From Phycisphaerales bacterium (GTDB lineage Bacteria > Planctomycetota > Phycisphaerae > Phycisphaerales > SM1A02), in the NCBI GenBank assembly GCA_029268515.1, contig JAQWNP010000008.1, positions 1 to 64,000 on the forward strand: 64,000 nucleotides of DNA, read 5' to 3'. The notes under the pieces were generated by a model that was given only the letters and a program-made list of their open reading frames with translations, did not search any database and was not told the DNA's origin. Positions 3,282 to 40,351 of the stretch are shown here, piece by piece. A program made the translations under genes and the position numbers. The stretch's first letter is position 1, and every line of letters starts with the position of its first letter.

Positions 3282-5317
3282 CTGGTACGCTTCCCATAGA
3301 TAAGGACCCGTGGAAAGTGCATGCACTTTCCATCTCTTTCGACTCGAATAAAGCGTCCGCGAGGCTTGGTGTCAGATAGATCAACGCGATACCAAAGATG
3401 GGCACCTTCAAGCGTCGCGACTTGTTCCCATTCAATACCGTCACGACTCACGAGAATCCGAGCGTCTTTGGCCCGATGTTGCTGACCTCTCCGCCCCTCA
3501 AGAATAATGCCCTCGATCTCGCCAAAGTGGGGCAGTTCAATTTCGAACCAAGGCTGGTCACCAACTTGAGTATGAAACTGACCGCCACGTTCTTCGAGTA
3601 CACCCCAGTGTTGCTCGGGAGAATCCCAACGGTTGCCAGGTTCCCAAATGCGTAGAGCACCACCTTGGCTCAGCAGTCTTCCTTGGAACGGTTCGATACC
3701 TGACTCAGCAAGGCTTGTTCGAGGTTCGTGAAGCCGAGATGCAGCTCGACCAATGCGCTGAAAGGTCTCTAAGTCGTTAGCTTCAGCAGCAGCTGGAAGC
3801 ATTGTTCGTGCTAACTGACGAAGTGCGGCATCTTGCCCATCACCAGCGCTGTTGGCCTCACCAAGAAGCACACGTTCAAACATGGCGTTGCCATCGGGAT
3901 CGTCTTTGAGCTTGTTCATCGCCCAAGCAATATACGGAGCGCCTAGATCAGGTGAGTCGATGAGGTTTCGCAGCGTCATTATTAGAAACTGCTGTTGCTC
4001 ACGCGGATCTCCAGCGTTTTTCAACATCCAGTCGAGCGCGGGCTCAATGTTCCATCGCACTGGTCCCCAGTCTTGTACGTTGCGGAGGTATCTTCCAAGG
4101 TATGCAATACGCTTGTTCGCTGGCATGCCTTTGAAGAGCTCTGGATAGATATATTGTTTCGATAAAGCCCAGACAGGCTCAGGATGGGCTGGTAGCAGCT
4201 GGTTGTGAAGCTTTGTCATGGTTCGTTCCCACCAGCGTCGATCCATTTGGTGGTCAAGGCCGAATTGTAGATAGTCGCGCCAGAGCCCCTCATCAAGATG
4301 ATTTCGGTCGAGCGCTCGTAGATAAGCTACTTCGGCTTGCTGCGTAGAACCTTGTTGATCATGCCAATGGGCAAGACGTTTTTGATCACTGGCTTGTTGA
4401 TGGTTAGTTGTACGTTCGAATGCACGCTGTACAAGCACATGGCTCGCCCAGTTTGGGCGCTGTAGTGATGAATGGAGGGAACGCTTCCAACTTAGTGAAT
4501 AGGCAGGTGTCCATTGGCCTGGTGCCGTTTGCACGGCATAGGCGCAGTGCCCAGGCTCGCCCATCGTGAATGCTGGTATTCCATTGGCGATTGCCGCGGA
4601 GGCGCCAGTGTTTGAAAGAGCGCCACAGACTCCACCAACCTCGATGGCCATTTCTGGATCACATCGAAAGGATTCACGAAAAGGGTGATAGTAAAGCCAG
4701 CCTTGAACGGTGTCGTCAAAGCAATTGAACCCACGGTATGGCGCTTGCCAGCAGGCGCGCACATATTCAGAACGAGGCCAGCAAATTCGTTCTCTGAGAA
4801 ATTCGAGTGCCTCGACTGCTGTGTAAGAGGGGTATTGGGCGCCACGTGCGAGAAAGCGCCGCTCCCACGTTGCGAGGTCTGGGTAACAGTTATTGAGAAG
4901 CCCGTCCTTAAAGTGATCTCTGAAGTAGTGATATCGATCGCGCATCCAAGAATCATCAAGTCGGTCCTTGCGTAACTCTAAAGCGCAAGCGGTTGCCATA
5001 GAACGATCGACCGACCGATTGGCAAGATCTGGATCTTCATTCCAAAGTTGAGCCAAGAATGTCAGTGTGCGTGGGCCATTCTCAATAGGGCCGCTATCGA
5101 GCAACTCTCGCATCCACGCTTCATGAGCATAAAGCGTCTTTAAAAAATCAGCTAACTCTGGTCGGTTGGCAGCTTGCTCAAAAATTGATGGTCCCGCATG
5201 CTCTTGAATCTGCCAGACAAGCAGTTCATCTGGGTTGGGCGTGATAGCAGAAACAGACGCAGCTATATTCAGATAGAAAACAGTGAACGTTACATTGATG
5301 AGCTGCGTGAGTTTCAT
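3278..5317 (-). CDS. Secreted transglutaminase-like protein with C-terminal discoidin-like domain
   Basis: 679 residues with an N-terminal signal peptide (about 1-24). The central region contains a papain/transglutaminase-like signature: a nucleophile cysteine in GGVCGALSNTGASA, followed about 25 residues later by histidine in GEPGHCAYAV. That Cys-His spacing is typical of bacterial transglutaminase-like peptidases. A helical region with repeat character follows, and the last 130 residues look like an F5/8 (discoidin) beta-sandwich (WFEIELPHFGEIEGIILEGR; DARILVSRDGIEWEQVATL), which normally binds carbohydrate or surface ligands. It is coupled to the thioredoxin-fold gene downstream by overlapping stop and start. 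The likely role is in the cell envelope, binding a surface polymer; the substrate is unknown. Confidence 0.7.
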   Translation of the reverse strand: MKLTQLINVTFTVFYLNIAASVSAITPNPDELLVWQIQEHAGPSIFEQAANRPELADFLKTLYAHEAWMRELLDSGPIENGPRTLTFLAQLWNEDPDLANRSVDRSMATACALELRKDRLDDSWMRDRYHYFRDHFKDGLLNNCYPDLATWERRFLARGAQYPSYTAVEALEFLRERICWPRSEYVRACWQAPYRGFNCFDDTVQGWLYYHPFRESFRCDPEMAIEVGGVCGALSNTGASAAIANGIPAFTMGEPGHCAYAVQTAPGQWTPAYSLSWKRSLHSSLQRPNWASHVLVQRAFERTTNHQQASDQKRLAHWHDQQGSTQQAEVAYLRALDRNHLDEGLWRDYLQFGLDHQMDRRWWERTMTKLHNQLLPAHPEPVWALSKQYIYPELFKGMPANKRIAYLGRYLRNVQDWGPVRWNIEPALDWMLKNAGDPREQQQFLIMTLRNLIDSPDLGAPYIAWAMNKLKDDPDGNAMFERVLLGEANSAGDGQDAALRQLARTMLPAAAEANDLETFQRIGRAASRLHEPRTSLAESGIEPFQGRLLSQGGALRIWEPGNRWDSPEQHWGVLEERGGQFHTQVGDQPWFEIELPHFGEIEGIILEGRRGQQHRAKDARILVSRDGIEWEQVATLEGAHLWYRVDLSDTKPRGRFIRVERDGKCMHFPRVLIYGKRTS

Positions 5318-35111: not shown

Positions 35112-35678
35112 TTATCCCGGACGGCGGAGCAGCATTCCTGCCCAGCAAAAGATCAAACCGCGTAGAAACACGCCAATCCCAAACAAGATGGCAATGAGAA
35201 GGGTGGCATCTGCAGGAAAGCAGAGTATGAGCACGCCGATGATGGCTGCTAATAAGCCAGAGAGCACGGCAAACGGGGCATGTTCCTGGTCCATACTAAA
35301 ACCAGAGATAGACTCCAAAACGCCAAGTACCAACAAGATGAGGCCAAAGATCCACATGAGGTTGATCACTCCAACCTCACCCATGATGACCAAGATAAGG
35401 CCGAGCGCAAAGATCGCGATTGGCGCGAGCCAAATGATGGGTGGATCACCAGCCTGTGTTGCGTAGTAGACACGCACGGCGCCGACAACGCCCCATATGA
35501 TCAACATCCAACCGAATATCAAATCAAAGATTCTGATGCCGGCTTCGGGACTAAAGATTGAGATAAAGAAGATAGCCAGACCGAGTAGGGCCATCACGAT
35601 GCCATCGATGACGAAGAGCCACCAATAGTCATGCATACGTGCTCGTAGTTCAGCAGCTGTGGGTACTTCTGTGTTCAT
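35112..35678 (-). CDS. HdeD family membrane protein (DUF308)
   Basis: 188 residues with six predicted membrane helices, in DUF308 pairs: VIDGIVMALLGLAIFFISIF, GIRIFDLIFGWMLIIWGVVG, IAIFALGLILVIMGEVG, LMWIFGLILLVLGVLES, AVLSGLLAAIIGVLILCFP and AILFGIGVFLRGLIFCW. HdeD is linked to acid resistance in E. coli, but in other bacteria the role is unclear. The ATG at 35678 was chosen because the preceding residues are polar and unlike the family. It is a single gene. Confidence 0.85.
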   Translation of the reverse strand: MNTEVPTAAELRARMHDYWWLFVIDGIVMALLGLAIFFISIFSPEAGIRIFDLIFGWMLIIWGVVGAVRVYYATQAGDPPIIWLAPIAIFALGLILVIMGEVGVINLMWIFGLILLVLGVLESISGFSMDQEHAPFAVLSGLLAAIIGVLILCFPADATLLIAILFGIGVFLRGLIFCWAGMLLRRPG

Positions 35679-36088
35679 TGCCTTGTCTCTCAAGCTAATT
35701 GTTGGCCCTGCGTCTCTTTTTAATATTCCACCATTCAAAAGGACCAATCGGTCTGTCACTGACTCAGGGAAGCCAATGCTTCTGGACCATGGAATATCAT
35801 CAGCATAAAGAGAATACAGCCAGACTGCACTGTGTCTTTATTGATCAGATCTGACCTCATTGGACTGGGGCTGGATTTTTCCACGATGAAGTTGAGATGG
35901 GAGGTCGCATTGATCTCTTGAAAACGCGCTTTAGGAGCCTTTTGGCACATCTGTGATCAGCAAAGCTGTGAGGCCACCAAGATGCTTCGATTGAAAGCAA
36001 CTTATGGAACCTAATTCAAATCTTTGTAGAGGCTTACGCGTGATAGCTGCGGTGATTTACGGCCCTACATATCTCAATAGTCTCTTCG
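35679..36088. other. 410-bp gap with no clear gene
   Basis: Two short frames here have no ribosome site or recognisable motif and no codon pattern of note. The region probably includes promoter sequence for hdeD and decayed DNA next to the lipoprotein remnant. Confidence 0.4.
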
Positions 36089-36229
36089 CTATTCCATTTC
36101 CTGGTTGGCTTCGCTGGGAACCAAGCGTCCAGCTTCATCATTCTGTGCAGCGAGGCTTTTATTACATTCAAACCATGACAAAATGGAAAAGAACACGATG
36201 GTCGCGGCGAGTAATTTAATCCTGTTCAA
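36089..36229 (-). pseudogene. Decayed 5' fragment of a duplicate of the adjacent lipoprotein gene
   Basis: Read on the minus strand from a TTG, 46 codons parallel the first 40 or so residues of the lipoprotein gene at 36397-37983. NRIKLLAA matches TRIKSLCAA, a cysteine stands at the lipidation position, and NDEAGRLVPS matches NEAGRLVPS. After this shared motif similarity vanishes and a TAG follows. The matching block also covers the untranslated leader with its ribosome site and palindrome (to about 36302). The full gene is about 530 residues, so this is a truncated copy. It may still make a short lipopeptide, but decay is simplest. Confidence 0.75.
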
Positions 36230-36269
36230 TTGTCTAGCCGCCTTCTTCTGGAAATGACTATTTGGCTAC

Positions 36270-36286
36270 ATCTGAAACTTTCAGAT
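36270..36286. promoter_or_regulatory. 17-bp palindrome in the leader of the lipoprotein remnant
   Basis: ATCTGAAA-C-TTTCAGAT is a perfect 8+1+8 dyad. It aligns base for base with the palindrome at 38022-38038, where one pair differs but is compensated (G-C there, A-T here). Conservation of the symmetry in a dead copy suggests it is recent or still under selection as an operator. Confidence 0.55.
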
Positions 36287-36300
36287 CTCTACTGAACAGG

Positions 36301-36327
36301 CATTGACGAGCGTCAGCTTCGTCAATG
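36301..36327 (-). repeat. Perfect 9-bp inverted repeat after the lipoprotein gene
   Basis: CATTGACGA and TCGTCAATG are separated by nine bases, 69 bases beyond the lipoprotein stop and just before the remnant's leader. No T tract follows, so a terminator is uncertain. Confidence 0.5.
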
Positions 36328-36396
36328 CCTGTGATGCCATTATGCCCCTGAAGCACCGTGCGGCAACGAGGTGCAATGATCTTGCTTCAACGCTGC

Positions 36397-37983
36397 TCAA
36401 GGAGTCGCTTGCGCTCGTTTGGAAGCAACTTCTTTATAAAGGGCTAGGTCTGCCTCTAGATTGGTAGAGATTGTCAAGCGGTATTGATTGGCCTTTGAAG
36501 TGATGCGGGTTGTCACAGGCGCAGGCGCTCCATTGCCAACGTTGAATGGTGATGCCCCGATGCGGTGTAACTGTTGTGCAAGCACACGTAGGTCCATGGT
36601 CATCGCCATGCGGGTGTGGCCCCAATCAGCTTTCATGGCTTTAGAAAATTCTACGGGAACTGGTCCAGCCTTCCCAGACTTAATCGTCTTAAGAGCGCTG
36701 CTTGATTTTGAATCACCACCCATCACAGCGGCCATGCCTATATACCCATGGCCAGATACACCAGTGATATTAAAAGTACCTGGGAAAAAGCTCGTGAGCT
36801 GCTGATAAAACGCTGCAAATGGGTTGTTATCTTCTTGAGCAGATGCATCAACTTCGAAGCTGGCATTGAGCGTTATGTCACTGTTCTCAGTCGTCATTTC
36901 ATGTGAAGACATTTTGATGCCATAAAGCACTTCTTCAGACTTCCATTCTTTCATAGAGGCATCAAAGTACGCTTTGGGATCATCACTTGCGGTGACCATG
37001 AACATGCTCATCTGTTTATTTTTGCTGTTATCACCTTGGATATTGACAGATAAAGCGGAGCCATCCTTCATCGTTGCCATCACAGCCTTCGCATCCTCAA
37101 GGCTCTGAGTGGCTGCCTTAAGCTGCTTGTCGTTAATGCCAGCCATCGAGTCGAGTAGCCACGTCTGATCGAGATTAATGAGGCATTGCATAAGATCCAG
37201 ATCCATGGCGGCATACATCATTTCACCGGCTGGAAGGTAGCTTGCCAGAGATGAAAGGGCATCTGAATTCGATGTCTTGGTTTTATCATCACTATCGAAG
37301 GTAACTTGCCAGATCATCTTGGTGTCTTTGAAATCAAGCTCAGTGGCGAAGTCAACCTGATTTATATCTTTTGTAATCTTGAGAAAATCAGCGGCGTCAT
37401 TATCCGGAGTCTTTGCTATTGCCGCATCGAGCATTTTCATATTCAAACGGAAGGTGATGTCACCTGGCAGCATGTCTTTTACAATCGCAGGCGCTTTGGC
37501 TGACGCCTTCAACTCAGGCTGAGTTGTTAATGCGACGTATTCAGAGTTAGGGAGAAAAACCAACTGGGCTTTTTGACTGCTTGCTTCAGATCCAATTTTG
37601 ACGTTGTCTTTTGTCGCGCCCTTGATGGCGAGGATCAATGTCATGTAAGGATCATTGGCGTTGGGATCTGCAGGTGCACCTATCGCCAGCATTATGGGTC
37701 GTGACATATCAATTGGTTGCTTCGTTTCAATCAATGGGGCAAGCTGGCCGTTGAGGTCGCCCTTGAGAATTGAGTTGGTCATGTCAGGCTCGATGGCATC
37801 GCCAATCTTAAGAAGCTGTTGGCGTAGTTGCTCAGGCGAATCGATAGCCAAAACAGCGAGAGCGTTACTTGGTACCAGCCGCCCAGCTTCATTAACCTGT
37901 GCATTAGAGCCCTTGTCACATCCGACAACGGTAAAAATAGCGATAAAAGAAACCGCAGCGCAAAGCGATTTGATCCTAGTCAT
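36397..37983 (-). CDS. Large predicted lipoprotein of unknown function
   Basis: 528 residues from an ATG with GAGG eight bases upstream. A short signal peptide ends in TVVGC, a workable lipobox with the lipidated cysteine at residue 22. The mature part has NEAGRLVPSNALAVLAID followed by repeated alternating strands and helices, several with motifs that look like internally repeated halves (about 45-250 and 260-510). It is rich in Lys, Asp and Ser, typical of a periplasmic or surface protein. I cannot place the family. The leader contains a 17-bp palindrome, and a truncated duplicate of the 5' end and leader lies downstream. This suggests a locus where this lipoprotein was once tandemly duplicated. 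Confidence 0.65.
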   Translation of the reverse strand: MTRIKSLCAAVSFIAIFTVVGCDKGSNAQVNEAGRLVPSNALAVLAIDSPEQLRQQLLKIGDAIEPDMTNSILKGDLNGQLAPLIETKQPIDMSRPIMLAIGAPADPNANDPYMTLILAIKGATKDNVKIGSEASSQKAQLVFLPNSEYVALTTQPELKASAKAPAIVKDMLPGDITFRLNMKMLDAAIAKTPDNDAADFLKITKDINQVDFATELDFKDTKMIWQVTFDSDDKTKTSNSDALSSLASYLPAGEMMYAAMDLDLMQCLINLDQTWLLDSMAGINDKQLKAATQSLEDAKAVMATMKDGSALSVNIQGDNSKNKQMSMFMVTASDDPKAYFDASMKEWKSEEVLYGIKMSSHEMTTENSDITLNASFEVDASAQEDNNPFAAFYQQLTSFFPGTFNITGVSGHGYIGMAAVMGGDSKSSSALKTIKSGKAGPVPVEFSKAMKADWGHTRMAMTMDLRVLAQQLHRIGASPFNVGNGAPAPVTTRITSKANQYRLTISTNLEADLALYKEVASKRAQATP

Positions 37984-38021
37984 TTGTATTGCCTCTTCTT
38001 CCGGAATTCCTGACTGGCTGC

Positions 38022-38038
38022 ATCTGGAAGCTCCAGAT
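38022..38038. promoter_or_regulatory. 17-bp palindrome in the leader of the lipoprotein gene
   Basis: ATCTGGA-AGC-TCCAGAT (7-bp arms) lies 39 bases before the start codon and is matched by the palindrome at 36270-36286. The position is compatible with a repressor operator overlapping the transcribed leader. Confidence 0.5.
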
Positions 38039-38185
38039 CCCCACAGAACAGTCAAGACCAAAGTGTAAGGGGTGACGCTACGATCAGGTGCTGGGCCTGA
38101 ACCTATTCTGAATATAATCCAAGTGATACTTGACCAGTCTTTAGGTCTTCGGGCTGCAAGATCTTGTGATCCAAATGGTTAGCGG

Positions 38186-40351
38186 TCACTGATCAGATGC
38201 CGAGTCCTCGCCTGTAACAAGCTCTTTTCGCAGCAAGCGAATGGCATCCGGCTCACCGATGGTTGTGATTCGGTCGTCTTCTTTCAGGACCGTACGGCCA
38301 CGGGGCACAATCATTTCACCTTGGCGCTGGATCAGGGCCACCAAGCAGCCTTCGGGGAAGCCGATATCTCGAATCGCCTGCCCGATGATTTGGTGTGCAG
38401 CGGATCCTCGCTGCAGCTCAATGGTGAGGTACCGGTCATTTCGTAGTAAGACTTCCTTGATGGTGTGGCCGTTGGAAGCTTTGAGCCAACTCTCTTTGAA
38501 ATCACTTTGTTCGACGCGTCCAGCGAGCTGGGCAAGTAAACGCAGATGTTGGCCTGGGTCATCATCTGGACTGACTAAGAAGAAGAGGGCTGTTACGCGG
38601 CGCGTTGTACTGTTTTCAGTTGCCACTGCACCCATTTCGATGTCAACACCGTCTCGCACCCGGACAATAAACATATGAGGGATATCAATATCCGCAAGTC
38701 TGATGTGAGGTAATGCGACCTCACCGGTGACAGGTGTTGCACCAATGCGTGTTCCTTCTAGAAAGCTCTGATTAAGTTGATTGGCATCTCTTTCTAAAAG
38801 AGTGGCAAACTTCTCTGAAACGAAACCCGTGATTTCTTCAAAGGAGGTTCCCTTTTTCGCATCCATTACTGAAGCCATCGCGACGACCTCATCAAAGGGG
38901 TCTTCGTCACGCAGTCCCTTCTCTTTTAGGATCTCACGAAGTTCAATATCAAGACCTTCGAATCGACGCCTTCCAAGTCGTTCGAAGACATGATAGATGG
39001 CACCATGTCGTCTTACACGTGGGGCTGCATACCAGCGATACCACAAGATGCCAATGACTACTAAACCTGCTGCAAACAAGGCGGGCATCCAACCCATCAA
39101 GATAATCAGCCAACATAAGGTAATGATGCCAACGATCTGCAACCACGGATAAAATGGTGCTTTCCAACCTGGGTCATAAGACTCGATTTGACTTTCGCGC
39201 ATGATAATCACTGCTAAGCAGAGCATGGCAAACATGACCAACTGAAAGGCGCTGGCAAGTTTGGCGATCTTGAGCGGATCAAGGAAAAGCACGAAAATGA
39301 CAATGGTTACCACACTCACTATGACAGCGAGTACGGGTGTGCCTCGGCGATCAAGCCGACCAAACGCTTTTGGTAGTAAGTGGTCACGACCCATCGCCAT
39401 GGGGTAGCGTGACGAGCTCAGAATGCCAGCATTCGCCACGGACGCGAAAGCCATGATTGCGGCAATTGAAATCACAACAAGACCGGCAATGCCGGCAAAG
39501 TTGAGAGCAGCATTGGCAACAGGTGTTTTGAGTGGAAGGCCTTCATCGCCAGTGGCCATCTCATCAGTACCCAGTACGCCAACCATTACCACTAAACTCA
39601 ATACATAGATCACCACGACTGTGCCAAGTGAAAGTAACAAACCTTTTGGGAGAGTTCGTTCTGGGTCTTTAACCTCTTCTGCAACACTGATGACTTTCGT
39701 CGCCCCAATAAAGCTAATAAAGACAATTCCAGTTGTTGCCAAGACGGTCTGCATCGCACCACCAAAGGTGTCATCTTGTGGATCTATCTTTAGAAACGGC
39801 TCAAAATTTTGGCTCTCTAAAGAGAAGAGCCCCCTGATAATGAAAAGAGTCATTATCAAAAGTACGCCAACAACCAGATAGACCTGCGCTTTTCCACTTG
39901 ACTTTGCACCCACAAGATTGATCAAACCAAACAAGAGTGCAATGACGACCGCAATGAGTTTGTAAATCCAGCTGTGCGTGTCTGATCCAAAGACCAGGGC
40001 AATGTAGGCACCCATGCCAACCAGTGCAAAGGACGCTTTAAGCGTTAACGCTAACCATGTTCCTAAGCCGCCGATGGTGCCAGCAACGGGTCCGAGACTG
40101 CGATCTAGAAAGTAGTATGTTCCGCCTGACCGGGGCATCGCGGTTGCCAGCTCAATCTTGCAGAGCATGGGCGGGATAAACAACAAAGCGGCCACAATAT
40201 AGGCCACAATAAGGGCCGGGCCCGCCATAGCGGCGGCGAAGCTGGGCAGCAAAAACAAGCCAGCACTCAGAGTGGTTCCTGTTGCTAATGCGTAGACCTG
40301 AAAGAGCGAAATTTCTTTCTTAAGTCGCTTTTGTCGTTGGGGAACAGCCAT
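38186..40351 (-). CDS. APC-type amino acid permease fused to EIIA-like and TrkA-C domains
   Basis: 721 residues. Residues 1-455 form an amino acid-polyamine-cation permease with about 12 helices (VYALATGTTLSAGLFLLPSF opens helix 1; MPRSGGTYYFLDRSLGP is typical). Residues about 470-625 resemble a PTS EIIA domain of the fructose/mannitol type, with the potential phosphohistidine in VALPHIRLA (His549). The last 85 residues look like a TrkA-C domain (IELQRGSAAHQIIG, GCLVALIQRQGEMIVPRG, DDRITTIGEPDAI), a fold that binds small ligands. The soluble part probably gates transport in response to phosphorylation or ligand. Transport direction and substrate are not predictable. It is divergent from paaN. 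Confidence 0.82.
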   Translation of the reverse strand: MAVPQRQKRLKKEISLFQVYALATGTTLSAGLFLLPSFAAAMAGPALIVAYIVAALLFIPPMLCKIELATAMPRSGGTYYFLDRSLGPVAGTIGGLGTWLALTLKASFALVGMGAYIALVFGSDTHSWIYKLIAVVIALLFGLINLVGAKSSGKAQVYLVVGVLLIMTLFIIRGLFSLESQNFEPFLKIDPQDDTFGGAMQTVLATTGIVFISFIGATKVISVAEEVKDPERTLPKGLLLSLGTVVVIYVLSLVVMVGVLGTDEMATGDEGLPLKTPVANAALNFAGIAGLVVISIAAIMAFASVANAGILSSSRYPMAMGRDHLLPKAFGRLDRRGTPVLAVIVSVVTIVIFVLFLDPLKIAKLASAFQLVMFAMLCLAVIIMRESQIESYDPGWKAPFYPWLQIVGIITLCWLIILMGWMPALFAAGLVVIGILWYRWYAAPRVRRHGAIYHVFERLGRRRFEGLDIELREILKEKGLRDEDPFDEVVAMASVMDAKKGTSFEEITGFVSEKFATLLERDANQLNQSFLEGTRIGATPVTGEVALPHIRLADIDIPHMFIVRVRDGVDIEMGAVATENSTTRRVTALFFLVSPDDDPGQHLRLLAQLAGRVEQSDFKESWLKASNGHTIKEVLLRNDRYLTIELQRGSAAHQIIGQAIRDIGFPEGCLVALIQRQGEMIVPRGRTVLKEDDRITTIGEPDAIRLLRKELVTGEDSASDQ

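Follow-up and report, generated by a model that had tools for sequence, protein, structure and literature searches.

In the window, the whole stretch of 64,000 nucleotides that we analysed (contig C8 of the 3.2 Mb genome G000), the short block that we call copy B is the deletion remnant of a tandem duplicate of the neighbouring intact gene, copy A, as its homology, its junction and its synteny with a related genome directly show. Our best explanation of the whole locus, to which we give a probability of about 0.62, is that an old tandem pair lost most of copy B in this lineage and collapsed the other way in the relative, and that a palindrome in the leaders serves the gene's own control; within it, the order of events and the function of the hairpin are what we infer.

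On the minus strand, the genes for an amino-acid permease (38186-40351), copy A, remnant B (36089-36305), and a DUF308 membrane protein (35112-35678) follow one another (Table 1). The only genome of the same genus that we compared, G001 (an uncultured Phycisphaerae bacterium, CALCOW010000427.1), has a single homologous gene at the same position, between the same two neighbours. The search for an intact second copy in close relatives, suggested in the sequence-only reading, thus ended with one gene in this genome.

Table 1. Features of the locus, with positions in the window
Feature	Position	Strand	Description
Copy A, intact gene	36397..37983	-	ORF of 528 aa; signal peptide, lipobox-like VVGC; no Pfam family
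Copy A leader	37984..38060	-	shares homology with the B and G001 leaders
Copy A palindrome ATCTGGAGCTTCCAGAT	38022..38038	-	arms 7, loop 3
Perfect stem, about 13 bp, 9-nt loop	36297..36331	-	between copy A and the B leader; without a T run
Copy B leader (remnant)	36230..36305	-	by alignment to the A and G001 leaders
Copy B palindrome ATCTGAAAGTTTCAGAT	36270..36286	-	arms 8, loop 1; A-T instead of G-C at arm position 6
Copy B remnant ORF	36089..36229	-	TTG start, 46 codons and stop; signal peptide, AGRLVPS, then a few spacer-derived codons
Deletion junction	36107..36111	-	B aligned to the G001 gene (left) and the G001 spacer (right)
Spacer after the junction, up to the DUF308 gene	35679..36106	-	corresponds to the 3' flank of the G001 gene, about 80% identity

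The leader, the start region, the signal peptide, and the AGRLVPS motif are common to A and B. Their local alignment, about 190 nt long, scores 49, compared with a mean of 8.9 (sd 1.3, maximum 13) for 300 shuffles; at the gene start the B/G001 alignment is likewise far above shuffles, and a profile match gives an E value of 1.2e-10. The coordinates given earlier for this similarity were correct within a few bases, and its abrupt loss, also noticed earlier, falls at codon 41 and could be resolved as a deletion junction. On the left side, B aligns to codons 1-41 of the G001 gene, and on the right side to the G001 spacer from 4617, which is 265 bp beyond the stop codon. Because B jumps from codon 41 to G001-like spacer, it has neither the gene body, nor the stop codon, nor the terminator (a strong intrinsic one lies at 4406-4434 in G001); the loss amounts to 1839 bp (about 1.84 kb) on the scale of G001. 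The view of B as a truncated duplicate is therefore supported: a single deletion placed the 3' spacer next to codon 41, probably with a 4-5 bp microhomology (AAGCC/AAGGC) at the junction. The ORF of B, signal peptide included, is still open. The upstream flank of B has no homology above chance to the upstream flank of A; the stem that lies between copy A and the B leader (fold of the stretch, z = -5.15) occurs once in G000 and not at all in G001.

The gene of G001 is nearer to B (88 of 123 nt and 26 of 41 aa identical) than to A (77 of 123 nt, 20 of 41 aa), and A and B agree in 71 of 123 nt and 20 of 41 aa. At third codon positions, the difference between B and G001 is 0.46, with 0.47 for the permease and 0.44 for the DUF308 protein among the flanking orthologues, and it is 0.55 between A and G001 (over 526 codons) and 0.61 between A and B. 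Since of the two copies B stands closer to the gene of G001, the pair is probably older than the species split, each species having kept a different copy; the support is moderate, as rooting three sequences requires a clock, and the site counts would come out alike if A had evolved faster following a later duplication. Sites in the leader side with A and G001 (14 vs 6) and sites in the coding region with B and G001 (27 vs 16), a pattern expected of a recombinant G001 gene (Fisher test, p = 0.029, chosen post hoc with the data already seen). The 5' flank of copy A matches that of G001; no such match is seen for its 3' flank or its last residues.

These comparisons suggest the following course of events. 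A tandem pair of genes for a secreted protein or lipoprotein would have been placed ancestrally between the permease and DUF308 genes. In this lineage, B would have lost its body, stop, and terminator in a single short-homology deletion of about 1.8 kb, which would have brought the old 3' spacer directly behind the 41 remaining codons of B, with leader and start still in place, and A would have been retained. In G001, recombination of one copy with the other would have reduced the pair to a single gene, since the coding start and the 3' flank of the G001 gene are B-like and its 5' flank is A-like. A duplication confined to this lineage, followed by fast change of A (with a new lipobox) and early truncation of B, would fit the single copy in G001, and also the leader stretches (AGCCA..TTCC.GAAGAAG) and the TGT (Cys) codon that A and B share and G001 lacks. 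We consider such a recent origin rather improbable, because A and B differ at 42% of sites and at 61% of third positions, more than the 44-47% of third positions in the orthologous flanks, and because the 3' flank of a fresh copy would match that of G001, which the 3' flank of copy A does not.

Both leaders carry a palindrome, with the exchange of a G-C for an A-T pair that the sequence-only reading had described (Table 1). Just beyond the core, at alignment columns 21/41, another pair differs on both sides: A has G-C, B has A-T, and G001 has G-T. In the 5.3 kb around the locus, three inverted repeats have arms of at least 7 and a loop of at most 5, two of them being the palindromes of A and B. 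With arms of at least 6 and the same loop limit, only one of the 11 inverted repeats in the syntenic 5.3 kb is kept in G001, namely the leader palindrome, which has 6-bp arms there and the same place as in the A and B leaders. The distance from the palindrome to the start codon is 38, 40, and 48 nt across the three leaders. In a simulation of neutral drift, all three sequences keep arms of 6 with a probability of 0.0006-0.004 (at 66-73% identity). This low probability, together with the retention of only this palindrome in G001, makes local constraint likely.

The sequence-only reading had gone further and taken the paired change to imply selection on symmetry. Constraint stands in the weaker form just given; the paired change alone proves no selection, because the covariation among the three sequences (two-sided change in 2 of 8 pairs, none in slid controls) was reached in 107 of 500 shuffles and because template switching can make such pairs. 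Paired stem changes that arise from template-switch mutation, without selection, are documented in PMC8794818; PMC7202029 also documents this mechanism. A quasipalindrome correction of this kind during replication, with no selection on symmetry, may possibly account for the change in B, whose palindrome is the most perfect (arms of 8, compared with 7 in A and 6 in G001), as a correction would leave it; it gives no account, however, of the arms that are unchanged in G001 and A while the other 10 of the 11 inverted repeats were not kept. That short palindromes stand in related leaders by chance and common descent only appears quite unlikely to us. The palindrome was picked out from many features, and the shuffles equally suit such a view, but neutral retention in all three leaders would be rare at the observed divergence, arms of 8 arose in only 0.1-0.3% of simulations after 3-4 random changes from A or G001, and G001 had played no part in picking the palindrome. 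B would still carry the palindrome because the deletion spared it and happened fairly recently. Instead, the B leader with its palindrome might have been re-used by the downstream DUF308 gene: leader, hairpin, and mini-ORF would together serve that gene as a new 5' control region, or as a short leader peptide. Such re-use would follow from the removal of the terminator by the deletion, and, if true, would explain why the symmetry outlasted the gene body; we regard it as very improbable.

As for function, the extended motif with up to two mismatches has three matches in G000 and G001 together, which are the A, B, and G001 leaders, and two looser matches in G000 are both inside coding sequence. 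The genome search for the palindrome upstream of other genes thus did not bear out an operator of the regulon type, and no ATCTG..CAGAT palindrome was found in the 200 bp before the first ATG of distant homologues (16-20% identity to A; 11 loci). Being confined to the three leaders and absent in the distant homologues, the palindrome appears to be a gene- and lineage-specific element rather than a regulon site. It is most likely a 5'-UTR mRNA hairpin for the gene's own control, with the operator of a local regulator as the alternative. A DNA operator for a dimeric regulator dedicated to this gene would suit the 17-bp near-perfect dyad in all three leaders and its variable distance from the start codon. 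We hold this only tentatively, as neither genome has a further upstream site, the neighbour genes scanned by Pfam, a part of the genes in the window, include no DNA-binding regulator, which may however be encoded farther away, and the flanking G-T pair of G001 suits RNA but not a DNA dyad, although this pair may not matter. The absence of a regulator among the scanned neighbours and the G-T outer pair thus put the mRNA hairpin slightly ahead. A scan for sigma-70 promoters gave no more sites than in shuffles.

Several other elements were seen nearby. Shortly after the permease stop codon, TGGATCACAAGATCTTG at 38157-38173 of the window is unchanged in G001 (C427:2461-2477); it contains a perfect palindrome of at least 10 bp and has no other exact match in G000 or G001. 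The spacer 35679-36106 (minus strand) is about 80% identical to C427:4618-5143 of G001, and the third codon positions of its neighbours are 53-56% identical. We therefore dropped this spacer as a neutral yardstick, since it is more conserved than those positions and so not neutral. It showed no codon periodicity and no Pfam match, and was not found in other genomes of the family; it may be an RNA or regulatory element, or what is left of a gene that decayed long ago. At positions 35680-35825 of the window, the fold is more stable than in shuffles (z = -2.68); no such excess is seen in the corresponding stretch of G001. At about 4892-4995 of C427, G001 has an additional stretch of about 94 bases with a near-perfect 12-bp direct repeat, GACACA(C/G)TGCAG, on either side; the window has one copy of this repeat (at about 35825-35840). 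One copy here and two in G001 point to a repeat-mediated deletion in this lineage or a gain in G001.

The description of these genes as lipoprotein genes fits copy A but not clearly B or the G001 gene. When the pattern [LVI][ASTVI][GAS]C was applied by eye to the ends of the signal peptides, A had VVGC, B had WFEC, and G001 had no cysteine but an SLA/AQ site like that of signal peptidase I. The G001 gene (L007 2661-4352) has a histidine/glutamine-rich tail, NQHQHQNQHQHQHQH, which copy A does not have. With a lipobox-like motif in A but not G001 and a tail in G001 but not A, the surviving proteins may be in different places of the cell envelope. Copy A had no Pfam match above the cut-off; secreted homologues with 16-20% identity are present in some other genomes of the family. 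The structure model of copy A (mean pLDDT 82) gave weak Foldseek matches to TP0453, DcrB, PsbP, the PknH sensor domain, and EagT6. This is a weak likeness in fold to DcrB/PsbP-like and TP0453-like secreted proteins, in which we claim no membership for copy A (query-length TM-scores of about 0.1-0.23, 6-11% identity, no Pfam family).

The surviving 'orthologues' in the two sister species are probably paralogues, at least in part. The locus is a clean, readable example of a tandem pair resolved differently in sister species; it alters no general view, and as gene decay it is tidy but ordinary, with a probable local control element. Regulation through leaders has been little studied in this group of bacteria, and the palindrome would be a small element of this type, specific to the lineage.

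In bacteria, 5'-UTR stem-loops such as the leader hairpins of the ompA type stabilise or tune mRNAs. The present palindrome resembles these as a short, conserved, putative leader hairpin some tens of bases 5' of the ribosome site; it differs from them in that the A, B, and G001 leaders gave no Rfam match and have whole-leader folds no better than those of shuffled sequences (z = -1.25, 0.01, and 0.06). It is also like the dyad operators of local transcription factors in its symmetry and its place just upstream of a gene, but here neither a second target nor a neighbouring regulator was found. As to the gene pair, the locus is of the same kind as deletion-remnant pseudogenes and the divergent resolution of tandem duplicates: the homologues are neighbours, only the 5' end of one is left, bounded by a junction with short homology, and related species apparently kept different copies. 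Compared with such cases, the junction here is unusually easy to read, because the relative keeps both of its parental sides.
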